33,037 nucleotides of DNA from Myxococcales bacterium (GCA_003154095.1 PMCK01000562.1:19902-52938); one strand, 5' to 3'. Numbered from the stretch's first letter, positions 3,252 to 25,392 are shown. Notes: a model not told the origin generated them from the sequence alone. A program made the numbers and translations.

Positions 3252-3321
3252 CAGTGCGCTAAGCCTGTGGCTGCGGCGGTGCTTTCACGTCAAAGCCAGC
3301 AGCCAGTAGCACTTGTTGGAC
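3252..3321 (+). repeat. Possible short attC-like site (weak)
   Basis: Nested arms AGTGC/GCACT and GGCTGC/GCAGCC, ending in GTTGGAC (3315-3321), which fits GTTRRRY. It follows directly after the GNAT stop. Confidence 0.3.
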
Positions 3322-3339
3322 ACCTGGGTGTCGAGCCCA

Positions 3340-3698
3340 CGACATTGGCGGCGCGGCCTGGGTCAACTGTAAAGCCCATCCTCGCGTGGTTGGCAGCCGA
3401 CGCCGGTCTGCTTCAACCCAACGAAGAGGTCTCGTGCAACAGCACGTTTGAATCCGGGTTTCACTGCTTCGCGTCACACGGGACACTCACACTTCCAGAT
3501 GCAATTGCTGCTTCCTGCAACGTGTACGCTTTCGAACTAGCCAAGCGCGTCGGGTTAGAACGAATCTCCTTTGGATTCACTCAATTTGGGCTGGGTCAGA
3601 AGACTGGGCTCGTCATGCACGAGTCGTCTGGCTTCCTTGCGACACCCCAATGGGTCGCAACACGGCCGTCGTCGCGCTCCGCCGTTCGGGCATCCTAA
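3340..3698 (+). pseudogene. Penicillin-binding protein transpeptidase fragment (PBP2/FtsI-like), truncated at both ends
   Basis: RPGSTVKPILAWLAADAGLL (SxxK), CFASHGTLTLPDAIAASCNVYAFELAKRVG (SxN), FGLGQKTGL..ESSGFLATPQW. Then the reading runs into repeat sequence; no KTG-box region follows. Confidence 0.7.
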
Positions 3699-3749
3699 TG
3701 GCACCTTCCGCTGCTGGATGAGCCGCGGCAGAAGCACAAGCCGTTGGCT
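3640..3749 (+). repeat. Partial attC-like repeat (right half)
   Basis: CGGGCATCCTAATGGCACCTTCCGCTGCTGGATGAGCCGCGGCAGAAGCACAAGCCGTTGGCT aligns with the right half of the 4508-4718 repeat (GTGGCAT...TTCCGCGCCGGATTGGGCCGCCGCTGAAACGCAAAGCCGTTGGGC). Confidence 0.5.
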
Positions 3750-3939
3750 GGCGCTGATAACGAAAGGCAGGGCCAGCATGACTGAGTACAGGGATTCCAT
3801 CGACTGCCGTCAAGTCTGCGGCAATCTGAATCGTCGCCTTTGGCGTCTGTACCGTAAGGTTATACTTTGCTCACGCCTACCACCGGCCATCGCGTCAATT
3901 CTCATGGCAGCGGAGCTTTCATTTCCCGCTTAACCGTTC

Positions 3940-4434
3940 ATGCGCTCGGCCGTACTCCGATATTGCTCCACTTCCGTTCGCCCACTCCTGAGGGTGCGTA
4001 TCGTGTCGAATCTCGAATTCGAATATCTCGCTGAACTGCGCTTGATGGTCTCCTATCAAGGAGCCACGAACGCGAGTGATAGCGCCTGGGATGCATACCT
4101 TACCGAGTTAAGGCAGGCCTTTCAATCGGGAGGACTCTCCCGTTCCTTGGTGGTGACCGAAGGAGCTTTTCCAACCCGCTGTCAACAGAGTCGAATGACG
4201 TCGGTCGTTGGCGGCCGCGCTCCGCGGGTTGCCGTCATTTCGTCGTCCGCTCGACTTCGCTTCGTTGTTTCGATGCTTGCACTTCTGAACAAAAACGTGG
4301 ATTGTTTCGACCCCAAGCAGGGCAAAGCAGCGTTTTCCCACCTTGACCTAAGTCCCTCCCAACAGGCGCTAGCCGAAGCCACGATCGAGCGTCTTCGTCG
4401 AAGAATGACTCTCGCGAGCACGACGGCGGCATAA
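3940..4434 (+). CDS. Hypothetical protein with an N-terminal SDSAWDAYL segment and a C-terminal PRVAVISSSARLRFVVSML segment
   Basis: Uninterrupted ORF between attC-like repeats. The true start may be internal (GTG at 4003 or ATG at 4048). Confidence 0.6.
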   Translation: MRSAVLRYCSTSVRPLLRVRIVSNLEFEYLAELRLMVSYQGATNASDSAWDAYLTELRQAFQSGGLSRSLVVTEGAFPTRCQQSRMTSVVGGRAPRVAVISSSARLRFVVSMLALLNKNVDCFDPKQGKAAFSHLDLSPSQQALAEATIERLRRRMTLASTTAA

Positions 4435-4507
4435 AATTCTGAACGCACCGACGTGCGTCGGCGTGGATATGCTGCCGTGCCGTTGCCCAGCGACGCTTTG
4501 CCGAGCC

Positions 4508-4718
4508 CAGCCAACTCGCGGTTGGATCAGCCAAAGGCCTGTAGCTCAAGCAATTGCCTTTTGTCGCGGTCCAAGCGATCATCCGTACCTTGAGGTTGAC
4601 GCTGGCCTTTGCGCCATCCGTGGCTCGGCAACGATTTTACGGCTGGCGCCTGTAGTGGCATACGGCTGCATGTTTCCGCGCCGGATTGGGCCGCCGCTGA
4701 AACGCAAAGCCGTTGGGC
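4508..4718 (+). repeat. attC-like structured repeat
   Basis: Left end GCCAACTCGCGGTTGG; hairpin GCGCCATCCGT (4611-4621) / ACGGCTGGCGC with loop GGCTCGGCAACGATTTT; right end GCTGAAACGCAAAGCCGTTGGGC, where GTTGGGC fits GTTRRRY (4712-4718). Confidence 0.65.
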
Positions 4719-4810
4719 AGACCTGTCAACGTGTTGCGTCTACGCGCGAAAAACGGGCGTGTTCGAAACGCAGCGGATCGAACTCTGCGAACATTGCGCT
4801 GGCCAGTTGG

Positions 4811-5302
4811 CTACCCCCATAGACCTTGAGTCATTGCGCCGCAAGAAACCGGTTCAAAGGAATCGAAGAAGATATCTCTGACCGTCCGCATGTCTTTCCA
4901 AAGTAGCTCATGGCCCTTCGTTCCCCGTGCGGTCTTCACGCGGTCTTGCCAAATGGCGATCTCTTGGTCAGTCCCGTTTCGCTTATTGCCCAAAGAGCCC
5001 ATGAGCCTCACTGCAGGAGGTGCTAAGAATTTTCCGGCGAGTAGTGATCGCTGCCAAAAAGCTGGAGTGCTGTTCACAGCAAGAATGCACACTCTGGGGT
5101 TCCGATTCACGTTCTTTGATGTTGTAACGGTAAACTCATCGAAATAGAAGCCCGTCTTATCGTCACGAAGAAAAAGTGCACCAATCGGCGCTACATGCGG
5201 AGAGCCGTCTTCAGCCACCGTGGCCACGGCAAAGTGCATAGAGCTGTTTCTGCCTTCTTCAAAGATTGCTCGGATTGTTTCCCAATGTTTGCCAATTTCC
5301 AT
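4811..5302 (-). CDS. Pyridoxamine 5'-phosphate oxidase family (PPOX, FMN-binding split barrel) protein
   Basis: FAVATVAEDGSPHVAPIGALFLRDDKTGFYFDEFTVTTSKNVNRNPRVCILAVN. Confidence 0.85.
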   Translation of the reverse strand: MEIGKHWETIRAIFEEGRNSSMHFAVATVAEDGSPHVAPIGALFLRDDKTGFYFDEFTVTTSKNVNRNPRVCILAVNSTPAFWQRSLLAGKFLAPPAVRLMGSLGNKRNGTDQEIAIWQDRVKTARGTKGHELLWKDMRTVRDIFFDSFEPVSCGAMTQGLWG

Positions 5303-5630
5303 GCAATTTGCCTCCTCGCTTTCACGGCCCTTTCTGTATCACCACGGGAGCAGCTACTATGCCAACGACAGGAGTGAATAGATCATTCTTCTGCAATGAA
5401 TTTTGTACCTGTACCACAATGAAAACGCTGACCGCCGCAGCTATTGGCCCCATTGTTTTGGGCGGCACGAAACACATTTGCTGCTGTTATGGCGTGCCTT
5501 TCGGTAGGCGAGCTAATTGTGAACTCGCCCGGTAGTGCGTAACCAGTTTTGCAGCAGTGGTACGGTGACCTACGCGTTGACATTCAACCGATCTTTCGTT
5601 TGTACGCTCCGTGTCTGCCCGAGCGAGACC

Positions 5631-5790
5631 GTTCAACTCACGCTTGCACCTGACGGCCTAGTTTTCTGGGGCGTTGTGGTCAGCCGCCGCCGTGGCTTCG
5701 CGACAATTTTACGGCGGCGGCTTGTTGTGGCATGCTGATAGGTACTTGCGGGTCTGACGGGCCCGCAGGTGAAGCGCAAACCCGTTGATA
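5631..5790 (+). repeat. attC-like structured repeat
   Basis: R''-like GTTCAAC (5631-5637, fits RYYYAAC). Outer arms CGCTTGCACCTG / CAGGTG-AAGCG with one unpaired base. Central perfect 12-bp stem AGCCGCCGCCGT (5682-5693) / ACGGCGGCGGCT (5711-5722). R'-like GTTGATA (5784-5790). Confidence 0.75.
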
Positions 5791-6189
5791 TGGAACGACC
5801 CGTCAAGTCTTGGCGTGACGTCATTTTCGCTTTTTTCCTTGTTCGATAGTTTTCTTTCTTCTTGGCGGGGGATGAAACAAAGAGTGAACGACCGAAAGCG
5901 TGCTTATTCGACGGTCATCAAGCTGATATCCGAGGGTCAGTTGAGCGCGCTCACGTTATTTGAGGGACGGATTCTCAAGATATTTGAGGGACGCATTGAG
6001 TCAAGCCAAGACAAGCAAATTCCGTCGGACTGTGGTTCGACAGCGATCACTGGTTAGAAGTATTCATCGAGTCGAAGGGATCGCGATGGGCGCAAAGCGC
6101 GCAGCCGGCTACGGCGATAACGACGGATGATCGCTCGCAGGGTTCGAATGGTGGCGATAAGGTCAAACGCTGCCTGCTGACTGGGGCTG

Positions 6190-6490
6190 CCTGGCTCGTA
6201 ACCGTGCGTGCCGGATTCGACCCTTCAGCCCTTTGGGGCCGCCGAGCTTTTCAATGAATCTCCTCACCGCTTCAGGCCGATTGGGAAATTGCCCAATGCT
6301 TCGGATCTTCTGCCTTCCCTCGGCGATTGCTGCCGTGATCGTTTCTGCATGTACATCCAAACCCAGATATCGTGTATTCTTGCTCATGACCGACTCCTCC
6401 TTTGTGGCTCTGCGTTTCAGTTTCCTTACCGAGACCGAGCGTAACCCACGCCTAAGGCGCGAGTCGGTCGTTCCATCATGACTGGACGGA
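6190..6490 (-). mobile_element. IS110-family transposase N-terminal remnant plus upstream end region
   Basis: Minus-strand ATG at 6387: MSKNTRYLGLDVHAETITAAIAEGRQKIRSIGQFPNRPEAVRRFIEKLGGPKGLKGRIRHA..., an IS110 DEDD-type N-terminus. It loses similarity after about 65 aa; the remainder is missing. Confidence 0.75.
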
Positions 6491-6493
6491 CCG

Positions 6494-6910
6494 ATGACAT
6501 CCTCGTTCCAAGATGCACTCGTGGAGGTGCTCGCTAAAGAGTTCACCGGGGAATACCGTGAAGATTTTGCTGCGGCCACCGCATCTTGGTCCGACGCAAA
6601 GATCGCCGCGTACGTCGAGTCACTGGTCTCTGCCCACTTCGGAGTCCAACCTTCCCGTCCACTCTTTGCGGAGAAGAGCGTCGGCGTGGTGTTCGGGATC
6701 GAGCTGATCAATAGCCATTCCGTTGTTCTCAAGCTCTTCGCGCCGTCACTAACTCTCGCCCAGTTGAATGGCGTTATTCGGTGCCTGCAACATCTTGAAC
6801 GAGCCCACTTTCCCGCAACGCCCGCTGTTTCAATGCCATTCTCCACTTCATTCGGGCAGCTTGGGTGTTTCTTTTCCTATGCTTCGGCACACCTTTCGCG
6901 GGAGTGGTAG
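6494..6910 (+). pseudogene. N-terminal fragment resembling aminoglycoside-phosphotransferase-like (APH/choline kinase) proteins
   Basis: VGVVFGIELINSHSVVLKLFAPSLTLAQLNGVIRCLQHLERAHFPAT resembles an APH ATP-loop region. The ORF ends before any catalytic HxDxxxxN motif. Confidence 0.45.
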
Positions 6911-6920
6911 AAGCCGAGCA

Positions 6921-8757
6921 ATGTCATCTCTCGAGAGCCCAGCTGGCGCCGACACAGTGCCCGGTATCGTAGCGCGGCTCATTTGGCTCTGGGCGGCTTT
7001 GTTGGCGGTGCTCGCATCCTTGCCAAGCTTGTTCGTCGGGTTTGTGAACGATGATCTCAACCACCGCCTGGTGCTCGAGGGGCGTGTCCCAGGCCGCTCG
7101 GGGACCTGGTTCGGGCTCTACGATTTTACATCACCCAGCTTGCCGGCGTCCGCACTGACTAGGCAAGGAATCTTTCCTTGGTTTACGGATCCCGCGCTCG
7201 CTTTGAGGTTTCTGCGACCGCTGTCGAGCGCGACCTTGGCGCTCGACCACGCGCTGTTCGGGCGCAATGCGCTGATCGCTCACGTGCATTCGTTGCTCTG
7301 GATGGCAGTTCTTGCGGGAATTGTTGGCCGGCTCTTTCAGCGCTGGTTCAGTGCGCCCGCAGCGCTCGTATCGGCGGTCGTGTTCGCGCTTTCGGGCGTG
7401 CACGCGATCCCGCTGAGCTGGCTCGCCTCGCGGCACACCCTAGTGGCAGCCAGCTTCGGCGCGCTGTCCCTATGGGGTTGGGTACGCCTTCGGGAGGATG
7501 GCTATAAGCCGGGGCTCGCCTTGTCAGCGGTCGCATTGGTCGCAAGCTTGCTATCCAGCGAATCGGGGCTGGTGACTGCTCGCCTGCTACGAGCTCGGCA
7601 CACGGGGTTTGTGGCGCGGACTACGAGGCGCAGCTCTACCGGTGGGATTGGGTTTGTGTTACCTCGCCTTATACGCGGCGCTCGGCTATGGCACACGGGG
7701 CAGCAACTTCTATGTCTCCCCCTTTAACGCACCCCTCGACTATTTGAAGGCGGTGTTCTGGGGAGTTCCGGCACTCGCTACGGAGTTGCTGCTTGGTGTG
7801 CCGTCCATCGTCCTAAGCATCGGAGGGCGTTCCACACAGGTGCTGTTGGTCGGCGCTGGATCGTGCGCCGTTGTCGGAACCGTCTTGCTGTTGCGTGCCG
7901 TCAACACGGCACTGTCTGTCAGCAACCGGCGGTTGCTCGCTTGGCTGGCAATCGGCTCGGTCGTGAGCCTGCTTGCACTCGTTGGAGCACCGGTGTCAGG
8001 CCGGGTCCTACCGCTGCCTTTCTTGGGAGCCGCTGCGGTAGCGGGTCACGTCCTGTGGGGCTCCTGGGCGATGGCTCGCGGCAAGGTGGGGCTTGTGGCA
8101 CCAAGAGGCTCTCATTCAAAACGTCCGCAACAGGGCTCAATGGGTCACAAGCGCTGGTGGATGGCGTTCGGTGTGGTCGTTCTGTTCCAGCTCGGACTGT
8201 CACCTTTGATGCGGCTGAGCATGCCATCCCAGTTCAGAAAGGCGGGTGAAAGACAAAAGCAGCTTGCTCTGGCGGCCGATATCGGTTCCTGTTCTCATGG
8301 TGGCTCTCTTTACGTCGTGAACGGTCCCGATCCGACGCTAACGCTGTACGGCTGGGCCGCGATTCTCTTTTACAGGCATGAGAAGCCGGGCGCCGACCGC
8401 CTAAGGATTCTCTCCATGGCGCCGCAGCCTCAGCGCCTTTCCCGAGCCGCATCAAACGTCCTAGAGCTGGAAGTGTTGGACCCGCCGCGGCAAAGTAATC
8501 TATTCGAGCCGCTGTTTCGCTCCCCAAGCCACCCGCTCCAACGGGGCCAAAGCGTCCAGCTCGATGAGCTCGCGGTGCAGGTGGATGCGGCGAGCGCGGG
8601 CTTATTCACACGGGCGCGCTTCGAGTTCGAGAACGACCTTGACCACTCGCGATCGTGTTTGATGGTTTGGAAAAACGGGCGGCTCGAGAAGCTGCCGATG
8701 CCTCACCTCGGCGAGAACGTGCGCATCGAGCACGAGCCCGGACCCATGGGACTGTGA
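6921..8757 (+). pseudogene. Multi-TM membrane protein (glycosyltransferase-39-like topology), frameshifted near 7565-7610
   Basis: MSSLESPAGADTVPGIVARLIWLWAALLAVLASLPSLFVGFVNDD... in one frame to about 7565, continuing in another frame as MWRGLRGAALPVGLGLCYLALYAALGYG...MPHLGENVRIEHEPGPMGL to 8757. Confidence 0.65.
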
Positions 8758-8884
8758 CGAAACACACGTTTGGATGTCGTGCGCCTCGAAGCGGAATTCC
8801 AAGGCTTACCCTAGCGATGGTGGGCGCCGTCGTAGAACAATCAATCAGCCGAGCGTCGACAATCATAAGAGCGTCACTTGAGCG

Positions 8885-9045
8885 CACCAACTCACGCTTG
8901 CACCGGACGGCCTAGTTTTCTGGAAGGTTGTGGTCAGCGGCAGCGGTGGCTTCGCAACAATTTTACTGCTGCCGCTTGTTATGGCATCCTGACAAGTGCT
9001 GTGCGGACCTAATGGGGCCGCAAGTGTGGCCCCCACGGCGTATTC
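8885..9045 (+). repeat. attC-like structured repeat (degenerate right end)
   Basis: CACCAACTCACGCTTGCACCGGACGGCCTAGTTTTCTGG; stem AGCGGCAGCGGT (8936-8947) / ACTGCTGCCGCT (8965-8976), one G-T wobble; loop GGCTTCGCAACAATTTT; then TGTTATGGCATCCTGAC and GGGGCCGCAAGTG. Confidence 0.7.
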
Positions 9046-9124
9046 GGCGATTTCTCAACCCAAACTGTAGCAACATGGACAGACTATCGGCTGGGGGCCT
9101 GAATCATGGTATACTGGTGGCATC

Positions 9125-9331
9125 ATGTCGCAGCCTCTGACGGCCAATGACCTACTACCCCTCGTTGCTCGGCTAGCTCCCCAAGAGCGGGAGCGTTTGG
9201 CTCGCTTGATCAGCGCCACGTCTGAGCGTGATGCCGCTATCTACGCGACCGCGCCGATCAGGCAGGATGAATTCGCTGCCGACGACGAATCCTTGGCATG
9301 GGATGCCGAGGGCTGGGAGGACGTAAAGTGA
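9125..9331 (+). CDS. Antitoxin of a MazEF-like toxin-antitoxin pair
   Basis: 68 aa, MSQPLTANDLLPLVARLAPQERERLARLI..., directly upstream of and overlapping a MazF-like ORF (GTGA overlap at 9328-9331). Confidence 0.75.
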   Translation: MSQPLTANDLLPLVARLAPQERERLARLISATSERDAAIYATAPIRQDEFAADDESLAWDAEGWEDVK

Positions 9332-9654
9332 ATCGTGGTGAGATTCGCTGGTGCACGTTCCGACTGCCTGACAAAAGAAGACCCGTAATGGTCCTAAGCC
9401 GAACTGAGGTTCTTGAACACCTAAACGAAGTGATTGTTGTTCCCATAACGCGGACAATTCGTGGACTGGCAACCGAAGTCGTCCTGACTCAAGATGACGG
9501 AATGCCCGTAACGTGTGCTTTGAACTTCGATCATGTCGCCCTCGCTCAGAAGGATCGCATCGGTTCTGCTCTGAGTACATTTGCGGAATGCACGCTGGCC
9601 CGAAGTGAGAAATGCGCTCCTGATAGCGTGTGGCTTCGAATCCAGCGAAGCTAG
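9328..9654 (+). CDS. MazF/PemK-like endoribonuclease toxin
   Basis: VNRGEIRWCTFRLPDKRRPVMVLSRTEVLEHLNEVIVVPITRTIRGLATEVVLTQDDGMPVTCALNFDHVALAQKDRIG: PemK/MazF fold motifs. Confidence 0.9.
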   Translation: MNRGEIRWCTFRLPDKRRPVMVLSRTEVLEHLNEVIVVPITRTIRGLATEVVLTQDDGMPVTCALNFDHVALAQKDRIGSALSTFAECTLARSEKCAPDSVWLRIQRS

Positions 9655-9817
9655 CTAACTCTGCTTGCACTTGCCGGCTTTCCATTTTGCAAGGTCGTGG
9701 TCAGTGGCAGGAGTGGCGCGCCCGCGCGCTTCGATCATACTCCTGCCACTTGTTCTGGTAACCTGAAACGTGATTGCGAGTCCGCATCGGCCGCAAGTAA
9801 AGCAACCGCCGTTGGCC
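9652..9817 (+). repeat. attC-like structured repeat overlapping the mazF-like stop codon
   Basis: GCTAACTCTGCTTGCACTTGCCGGC ... GGCCGCAAGTAAAGCAACCGCCGTTGGCC as outer arms. Central perfect 12-bp stem AGTGGCAGGAGT (9703-9714) / ACTCCTGCCACT (9739-9750). Terminal GTTGGCC (9811-9817) followed by AGAC. Confidence 0.75.
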
Positions 9818-24080: not shown

Positions 24081-24341
24081 CTCGTACGTCGAACGCCCAG
24101 GCTTTCTTTCTAGTTACTGTCCTTGTTGTTTACGACGATTCGAAACCGGCAACCGCCCATCGCGAATTATCCACTGATTCAAATCATTCACTGGGTACAT
24201 CGGAGCCCCGCCGGGGACGAAGGCCTGCCTTGCCACCCATTGCCTTACACCGTATTTGGTGCGATCATTCTAGCCTTGAGTTTTTGGGGTAGGTCTTCGC
24301 GGCTCAAGCCCCATCCGCTATGCCGACGTGAGTTGAATACG

Positions 24342-24692: not shown

Positions 24693-24784
24693 TGCTCTGA
24701 TGGTACCACAAGGAATTTTTGCAAAACGTGTAGAGTCTGCTGCGGCACGGTCGAGCGGCGTTCCGACAGTGTAAGCGTGCGGCA

Positions 24785-25001
24785 TAACTCACGTTTGCAG
24801 CGCTCGGCCAAGTTTTGGCTGGGTTCATGCTGGCGCCAGCCGTGGCTATACATCCATTTTGCGGCTGGCGCCCGTTGTGGCAATTTGACGCCTCCTTCTG
24901 GATAGGTCTCCAAAATTATTGGGACTGAATGAATCAGTGAATCTTGGATTTAGCTTTTCAGTCGGGCATTCTGAAGGCGTGAGTCGATGCCTCCGTTGGG
25001 C
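24785..25001 (+). repeat. Outlying attC-like structured repeat with about 100-bp internal difference
   Basis: TAACTCACGTTTGCAGCGCTCGGCCAAGTTTTGGCTGGG; stem GGCGCCAGCCG (24832-24842) / CGGCTGGCGCC (24862-24872) around TGGCTATACATCCATTTTG; CGTTGTGGCAAT; ends CCGTTGGGCAGAC, identical to the 4711-4722 end. Confidence 0.6.
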
Positions 25002-25065: not shown

Positions 25066-25392
25066 CTACCTCTTCCCCTCAACCAACCGTACCAAGGTTC
25101 CAGTTATACGATTGATCAAAGCCAAAAACTCCGAGTCCAGAGTGCGCACATATCCAAACGCGCGAGCCACCTCCAAACATGAGTAACTCTCCCGCATGGA
25201 ACCGAGCGCGGTATGATAACGAACAGTCCGCAATTCGCCGCGCGAATACATCCCCTCCCCAAGATTCAAGGCTACGCTGCTAGACGCGCGCCGCAGCTGA
25301 CGCCCCAAGTCCCGATCCCGCCGCTCAATCTGGGCGAGTAACGGACGCAACGCGGCGATGAATTCAAGAACAACTGGGTAAATCTTGAGCAT
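25066..25392 (-). CDS. Four-helix-bundle protein (23S rRNA IVS/Avd-like family)
   Basis: ATG at 25392: MLKIYPVVLEFIAALRPLLAQIERRDRDLGRQLRRASSSVALNLGEGMYSRGELRTVRYHTALGSMRESYSCLEVARAFGYV, characteristic family pattern. Confidence 0.88.
   Translation of the reverse strand: MLKIYPVVLEFIAALRPLLAQIERRDRDLGRQLRRASSSVALNLGEGMYSRGELRTVRYHTALGSMRESYSCLEVARAFGYVRTLDSEFLALINRITGTLVRLVEGKR

Follow-up and report, generated by a model that had tools for sequence, protein, structure and literature searches.

Clusters of attC sites without an integron integrase (CALINs), defined as two or more attC sites with less than 4 kb between them (PMC9024848, PMC9668308), have been proposed to be degraded integrons. 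Their counts are inflated in draft genomes (PMC9024848), and their cassettes can still be moved by IntI acting in trans (PMC9668308). The array analysed here lies in a 33,037-nt stretch of DNA, referred to below as the window, which corresponds to bases 19,902−52,938 of the 87.6-kb contig C118 in a metagenome-type, 8.66-Mb draft genome of a Myxococcales bacterium (714 contigs, estimated contamination 2.85%). Small assembly gaps were present among the draft contigs and none fell within the window; the array occupied about 23.6−29.7 kb of C118, with ordinary chromosomal genes flanking it on both sides. It resembled the published CALINs (PMC9024848) in having at least two attCs on one strand, separated by gaps (0.76, 0.91, 3.1 and 0.6 kb) below the 4-kb limit, with no intI on the contig, and differed from them in that two attC families interleaved and one attC was a mosaic of both. 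Like the sedentary chromosomal integrons of the Vibrio and Xanthomonas type, this genome has an intI, attCs specific to the host and numerous cassettes, among them a toxin-antitoxin cassette and many whose function is unknown, whereas here the system was scattered over about 30 contigs, with very diverse attCs and several damaged intI genes. A separate chromosomal integron in a relative from the same family (G009) carried nearly uniform 164-nt attCs, as opposed to the very diverse ones found here. The window array itself belongs to the known CALIN or chromosomal integron kind, and the only unusual part was a layout with multiple attI sites headed by DUF559 genes elsewhere in the genome.

An initial DNA search with the first good copy of the window repeat returned 11 places in the genome and made two repeat families apparent, A of about 155−170 nt and B of about 130−140 nt. 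In both, an AAC box on the left and a GTT box on the right enclosed paired arms, which had an extra G, and a hairpin inside. Covariance models R1 (type A) and R2 (type B) scored all four good copies claimed by the first-pass annotation, at the positions it had given and with E-values of 1e-14 to 3e-42 (Table 1). The R1 training set included window copies 2, 3 and 4; independent support came from sites outside the training, at 24197−24333 and 24818−24910 of the window and at more than 40 places on other contigs. A search of the window against Rfam gave no family match at gathering thresholds. The single repeat family proposed at first held as to attC identity and proved to be two families, with copy 1 a chimera in which the type-B 5′ part and hairpin (R2 on 4507−4639) were joined to a type-A 3′ half (R1 on 4567−4721). 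Among the partial or weak copies proposed, the remnant attC0 consisted of a 3′ half only, and the two decayed attCs at 24.2 and 24.8 kb had gone unlisted. The covariance score of attC0 (9.8 bits) was by itself not significant; its R′ box was the exact complement of the R″ box of the next site, attC1. Consensus boxes (R″ RYYYAAC, R′ GTTRRRY) were present in most genome copies and in window copies 1 and 4, and the degeneracy of some R′ boxes noted earlier was confirmed at copy 2 (GTTGATA) and at copy 3, where no GTTRRRY box was found.

Table 1 Coordinates of repeats, cassettes and associated features (window positions unless a contig is given)
Feature	Position	Strand	Description	Evidence
attC0	3653..3752	+	3′ remnant, type A; R′ GTTGGCT at 3743-3749	R1 9.8 bits, nhmmer 34 bits
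attC1	4509..4718	+	B/A mosaic; R″ AGCCAAC, R′ GTTGGGC	R2 77.7, R1 59.6 bits
attC2	5631..5790	+	type A; R″ GTTCAAC, R′ GTTGATA	R1 164.3 bits
attC3	8885..9045	+	type A; R″ CACCAAC, R′ lost	R1 138.8 bits
attC4	9653..9817	+	type A; R″ AGCTAAC, R′ GTTGGCC	R1 142.2 bits
attC5	24197..24333	+	type B, degraded on R″ side	R2 54.9 bits
attC6	24782..24910	+	type A, L′/R′ (3′ side) lost; R″ GCATAAC	R1 53.1 bits (24818-24910), nhmmer 75 bits
Cassette 1	3744..4712	+	crossover to crossover; 164-aa ORF at 3940-4434	
Cassette 2	4713..5784	+	PNPOx-domain ORF 4811-5302 on minus strand	PF01243 5e-10
Cassette 3	5785..9040	+	ORF 6494-6910; PMT_2-like membrane protein 6768-7727 + 7609-8757	
Cassette 4	9041..9811	+	small ORF 9125-9331; MazF/PemK-type ORF 9298-9654; left end inferred	
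attI family alpha, 5 copies	C396:5717, C396:13901, C573:1242, C573:7219, C22:1603	-, -, +, +, +	loci L042, L147, L044	
attI family beta, 3 copies	C75:599, C86:10679, C626:539	+, -, +	loci L145, L157, L152	
Four-helix-bundle / 23S_rRNA_IVP gene	25081-25326	-	in the window	
Four-helix-bundle / 23S_rRNA_IVP genes	C613:226-564, 690-1043; C418:6291-6629; C22:17-226; C396:312-581		on other contigs	

The structure of the repeats was judged from covariation, because copies folded one at a time yielded mixed structures dominated by internal hairpins. RNAalifold placed 32 pairs in an alignment of 13 type-A copies, 22 of them with compensatory changes, and 27 pairs in nine type-B copies, with compensatory changes in nine. 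In the type-A covariation alignment, columns 18 and 25 of the left arm were unpaired, at a distance of 6 nt from each other; of these extrahelical bases, the one read first on the bottom strand was variable and the one read second was always C. Type B had paired L″/L′ arms and similar extrahelical bases, with a mismatch. Two extrahelical bases on one side, 6 nt apart, have been described for attC sites, among which T-N6-G or T-N6-C are well excised (PMC3053210). Covariation thus reveals the attC architecture of paired arms and two extrahelical bases at this distance.

Genome-wide, at E ≤ 0.001, the two models gave overlapping sets of 59 (R1) and 26 (R2) matches, which, merged by hand and including the weak remnant attC0, amounted to 70 attC sites on 30 contigs, with a maximum of eight per contig. 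All sites on a contig were on the same strand in 29 of the 30 cases, and types A and B were interleaved within single contigs such as C396, C128, C200 and C461. The covariance-model search proposed with the first-pass annotation returned about 70 sites in same-strand arrays. Short variants of about 65−80 nt, all with the R″ box GTCCAAC, were also observed at C53:3364, C293:969, C580:5390 and C573:2181, and possibly represent a third attC family.

A quantitative test of integron recombination follows from the crossover rule. If IntI cuts G^TTRRRY, the first six bases of a cassette travel with it; its R″ box is then expected to be complementary to the R′ box at that same start, which is the R′ of the preceding attC, while the downstream R′ need not match. 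Of 32 cassettes of the genome with readable boxes, 20 had an R″ that was an exact match to their own start and three had one that exactly matched the downstream R′; with shuffled starts, exact matches averaged 3.9, and none of 20,000 permutations reached 20. Among the cassettes that failed, C396:5273 and C573:8234 had an attI as their true start, which they matched exactly, and in the relative G009 the rule held for six of seven cassettes. Across the genome, the boxes were those expected of a circular intermediate joined at G^TTRRRY, as for integron gene cassettes. In the window, scoring was confined to cassettes 1 and 2, since the lost R′ of attC3 marks both the end of cassette 3 and the start of cassette 4. 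Cassette 1 alone passed, with exact pairing between its start GTTGGCT and its R″ AGCCAAC, and cassette 2 matched at two of four positions. The pass by cassette 1, together with the failing or unscorable cassettes 2−4, indicated that the window holds true cassettes in decay. Fold covariation, boxes and crossover rule thus all agreed with the proposed attC identity. The outcome named earlier as speaking against it, namely no covariance matches and copies inside genes without cassette context, was the opposite of the same-strand arrays and obeyed crossover rule seen here.

The gene content of the four cassettes was only in part assignable to known families. The 164-aa ORF of cassette 1 had no Pfam match and belonged to no known family, and the ORF of cassette 2 was oriented opposite to the attCs. 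Cassette 3, at 3.2 kb long for a cassette, is possibly fused or degraded, and its right end had to be inferred because the R′ of attC3 is lost. Its membrane protein was a weak PMT_2 match (PF13231, E 0.0025, under the curated cut-off), and the split of this ORF over two frames reflects a frameshift or a sequencing error. In cassette 4 the MazF/PemK-type ORF matched PF02452 at 4e-9, and the small ORF before it is, from its position, probably the antitoxin. Of the cassette content first suggested, the PNPOx (PF01243) and MazF-type (PF02452) genes were upheld, and the GNAT gene (2774−3235) was found upstream of the first recognisable attC. Both this gene and a truncated transpeptidase ORF lay at or before the first attC remnant, outside any assignable cassette.

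To place the array relative to its integrase, the genome was surveyed with the integron-integrase model TIGR02249, which scored above its cut-off at four loci (C613, C22, C130 and C418); C620 carried a fragment. One of these intI genes was intact (C613) and four were broken or gapped, including the C22 gene, which contained a 2-base assembly gap, and the truncated genes of C130 and C418. The C613 protein scored 412.6 bits against a cut-off of 265, its best match was Vibrio IntI4 (PDB 2A3V, E 3e-77, aligned over the full length), and inspection of this alignment by eye showed the catalytic residues of tyrosine recombinases to be conserved. Compared with other genomes, it matched integrases from many phyla at up to 61% identity. 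Contig C118 had no TIGR02249 or PF00589 match and no attI, bearing out the first-pass call of a CALIN without an integrase; the search for intI elsewhere, which had also been suggested, uncovered the intact gene and its damaged counterparts. The arrangement of a complete integron, with intI adjoining attI and an array, was absent from C118 and present on C22. Because C118 lacks intI, the published definition makes the region a CALIN; because intact and broken intI genes occur elsewhere in the genome, "without integrase" holds for the contig and not for the cell.

We conclude, with a probability of about 0.93, that the window contains a CALIN, a decaying row of four cassettes plus remnants that has been cut off from its integrase. 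Decay was evident at most of its sites, with attC1 a mosaic, attC3 devoid of R′ and attC5 and attC6 reduced to halves. The cassettes would have been acquired through integron recombination, in which IntI would fold the attC bottom strand and cut G^TT in R′ (site structure and crossover point are shown here, catalysis and strand use extrapolated from the known family), and the circular cassette would insert adjoining attI or another attC. The host carries a large, broken-up chromosomal integron comprising ~70 attC sites together with several damaged intI genes and an intact one. Given the intact gene, the better sites of the window could still be recombined by IntI in trans. Counting against the CALIN reading in the window are the single cassette that passed the crossover test, the degenerate R′ boxes of copies 2 and 3, the reversed ORF of cassette 2 and the unusual length of cassette 3, as well as the draft state of the contigs.

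The alternative that survives best, although unlikely, is that the integron is complete and that only assembly or binning parted the array from its intI, making the CALIN an artefact of the 714-contig draft. The known inflation of CALIN counts in such genomes (PMC9024848) and the location of intI on the short contigs C22, C613, C130 and C418 are in its favour, but the array is embedded in an 87.6-kb contig, flanked left and right by ordinary chromosomal genes, and that contig lacks both intI and attI. Less probable again is a misbinned C118, with the array derived from another organism than the intI contigs; a metagenome-type draft with 2.85% estimated contamination leaves room for such an error, yet families A and B, including close kin of the window copies, occurred on many contigs and were interleaved on several of them, and the intI contig C22 itself bears type-B attCs. 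That the repeats are REP- or MITE-like palindromes resembling attC and spread by a transposase rather than by IntI is highly improbable, because the dispersal in many copies, some alone on their contig, with variable length and internal mosaicism, was accompanied by a uniform strand, a gene-unit spacing of about 1−2 kb, R″ and cassette-start boxes that follow the IntI crossover rule and attI junctions that break exactly at GTT, none of which MITEs predict, and the either-way orientation without cassette unit or crossover rule expected of such elements was not seen.

Outside the window, eight attI copies of two families were recognised on other contigs. The intI of C22 is transcribed in the direction of attI and the cassettes, on one strand with them, and the attI segment between intI and the first cassette ends AATTAAGA^GTTCGGC, with the R″ of the first attC there being GCCGAAC. 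Copies of this alpha segment, two on C396 and two on C573, were 83−86% identical to that of C22, and all alpha copies agreed up to AAYTAAGA^GTT before diverging into different cassettes. Copies of a second family, beta, showed the same break at GTT and lay downstream of DUF559 genes. In six of the eight attI copies, the R″ of the first downstream attC matched the attI-side start exactly; at C396:13901 one position differed, and C626 had its next attC 4 kb further on, with a non-matching R″. No intI was found beside seven of the eight copies (four of the five alpha copies), and each of these seven had a DUF559 gene just upstream, on the attC strand. Three of the seven DUF559 genes were cut by a contig end, where an intI further upstream is possible, and C396 carried two intI-less attIs with no assembly gap.

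Genes for DUF559 (PF04480, Vsr-like nuclease fold) numbered 26 in the genome, and 14 of them were on attC contigs, whose share of the genome is 5.9%; the binomial p of about 3e-11 overstates the significance, because several of these genes share contigs. A role of DUF559 as a general IntI partner was rejected, as none occurred in 80 other IntI loci or on the attC contigs of G009, so that it is not a general integron feature. Our literature search found no paper linking DUF559 and integrons. The lack of the link in G009 suggested a possibly lineage-specific copying of one segment, and the DUF559-attI segment may have been copied in this way. Genes for four-helix-bundle (23S_rRNA_IVP) proteins were also observed beside intI genes or array ends (Table 1), with seven of the 30 in the genome on attC or intI contigs (p about 0.002). 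No homologue was present in 80 foreign IntI loci, and these genes, too, are therefore not a general integron feature.

The orphan attI copies have their closest known counterpart in the delta-attI-type cassettes of mobile integrons (PMC12901181), in which attI likewise lies inside a cassette or between two, apart from intI, and the crossover is still at G^TTRRRY, whereas the attI segments described here are longer, fall into two families, lie downstream of DUF559 genes and stand at the start of separate cassette runs. The atypical integrons of Treponema (PMC3607928) are similar in that intI is transcribed towards attI, as on C22, and differ in having one attI per integron, as opposed to at least eight attI copies in this genome. 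We tentatively propose, at slightly less than even odds, a multi-attI integron with at least seven attIs of two families, each just downstream of DUF559 rather than intI, which would independently receive cassettes through IntI supplied in trans; DUF559 and attI would have been duplicated jointly, as a head module. The trans-acting IntI would, in our reading, come from C613 or C22, and DUF559 could be a passenger or could aid the spread of the module.

Taken together, an unannotated repeat family was shown from sequence alone, by a quantitative crossover test, to be a site-specific gene-capture system. A further host is thereby described, whose chromosomal integron is large, fragmented and partly decayed and carries two interleaved attC families. 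If the attI-DUF559 copies are confirmed, one integrase can feed several insertion points, in contrast to the one attI per integron stated previously (PMC3607928).
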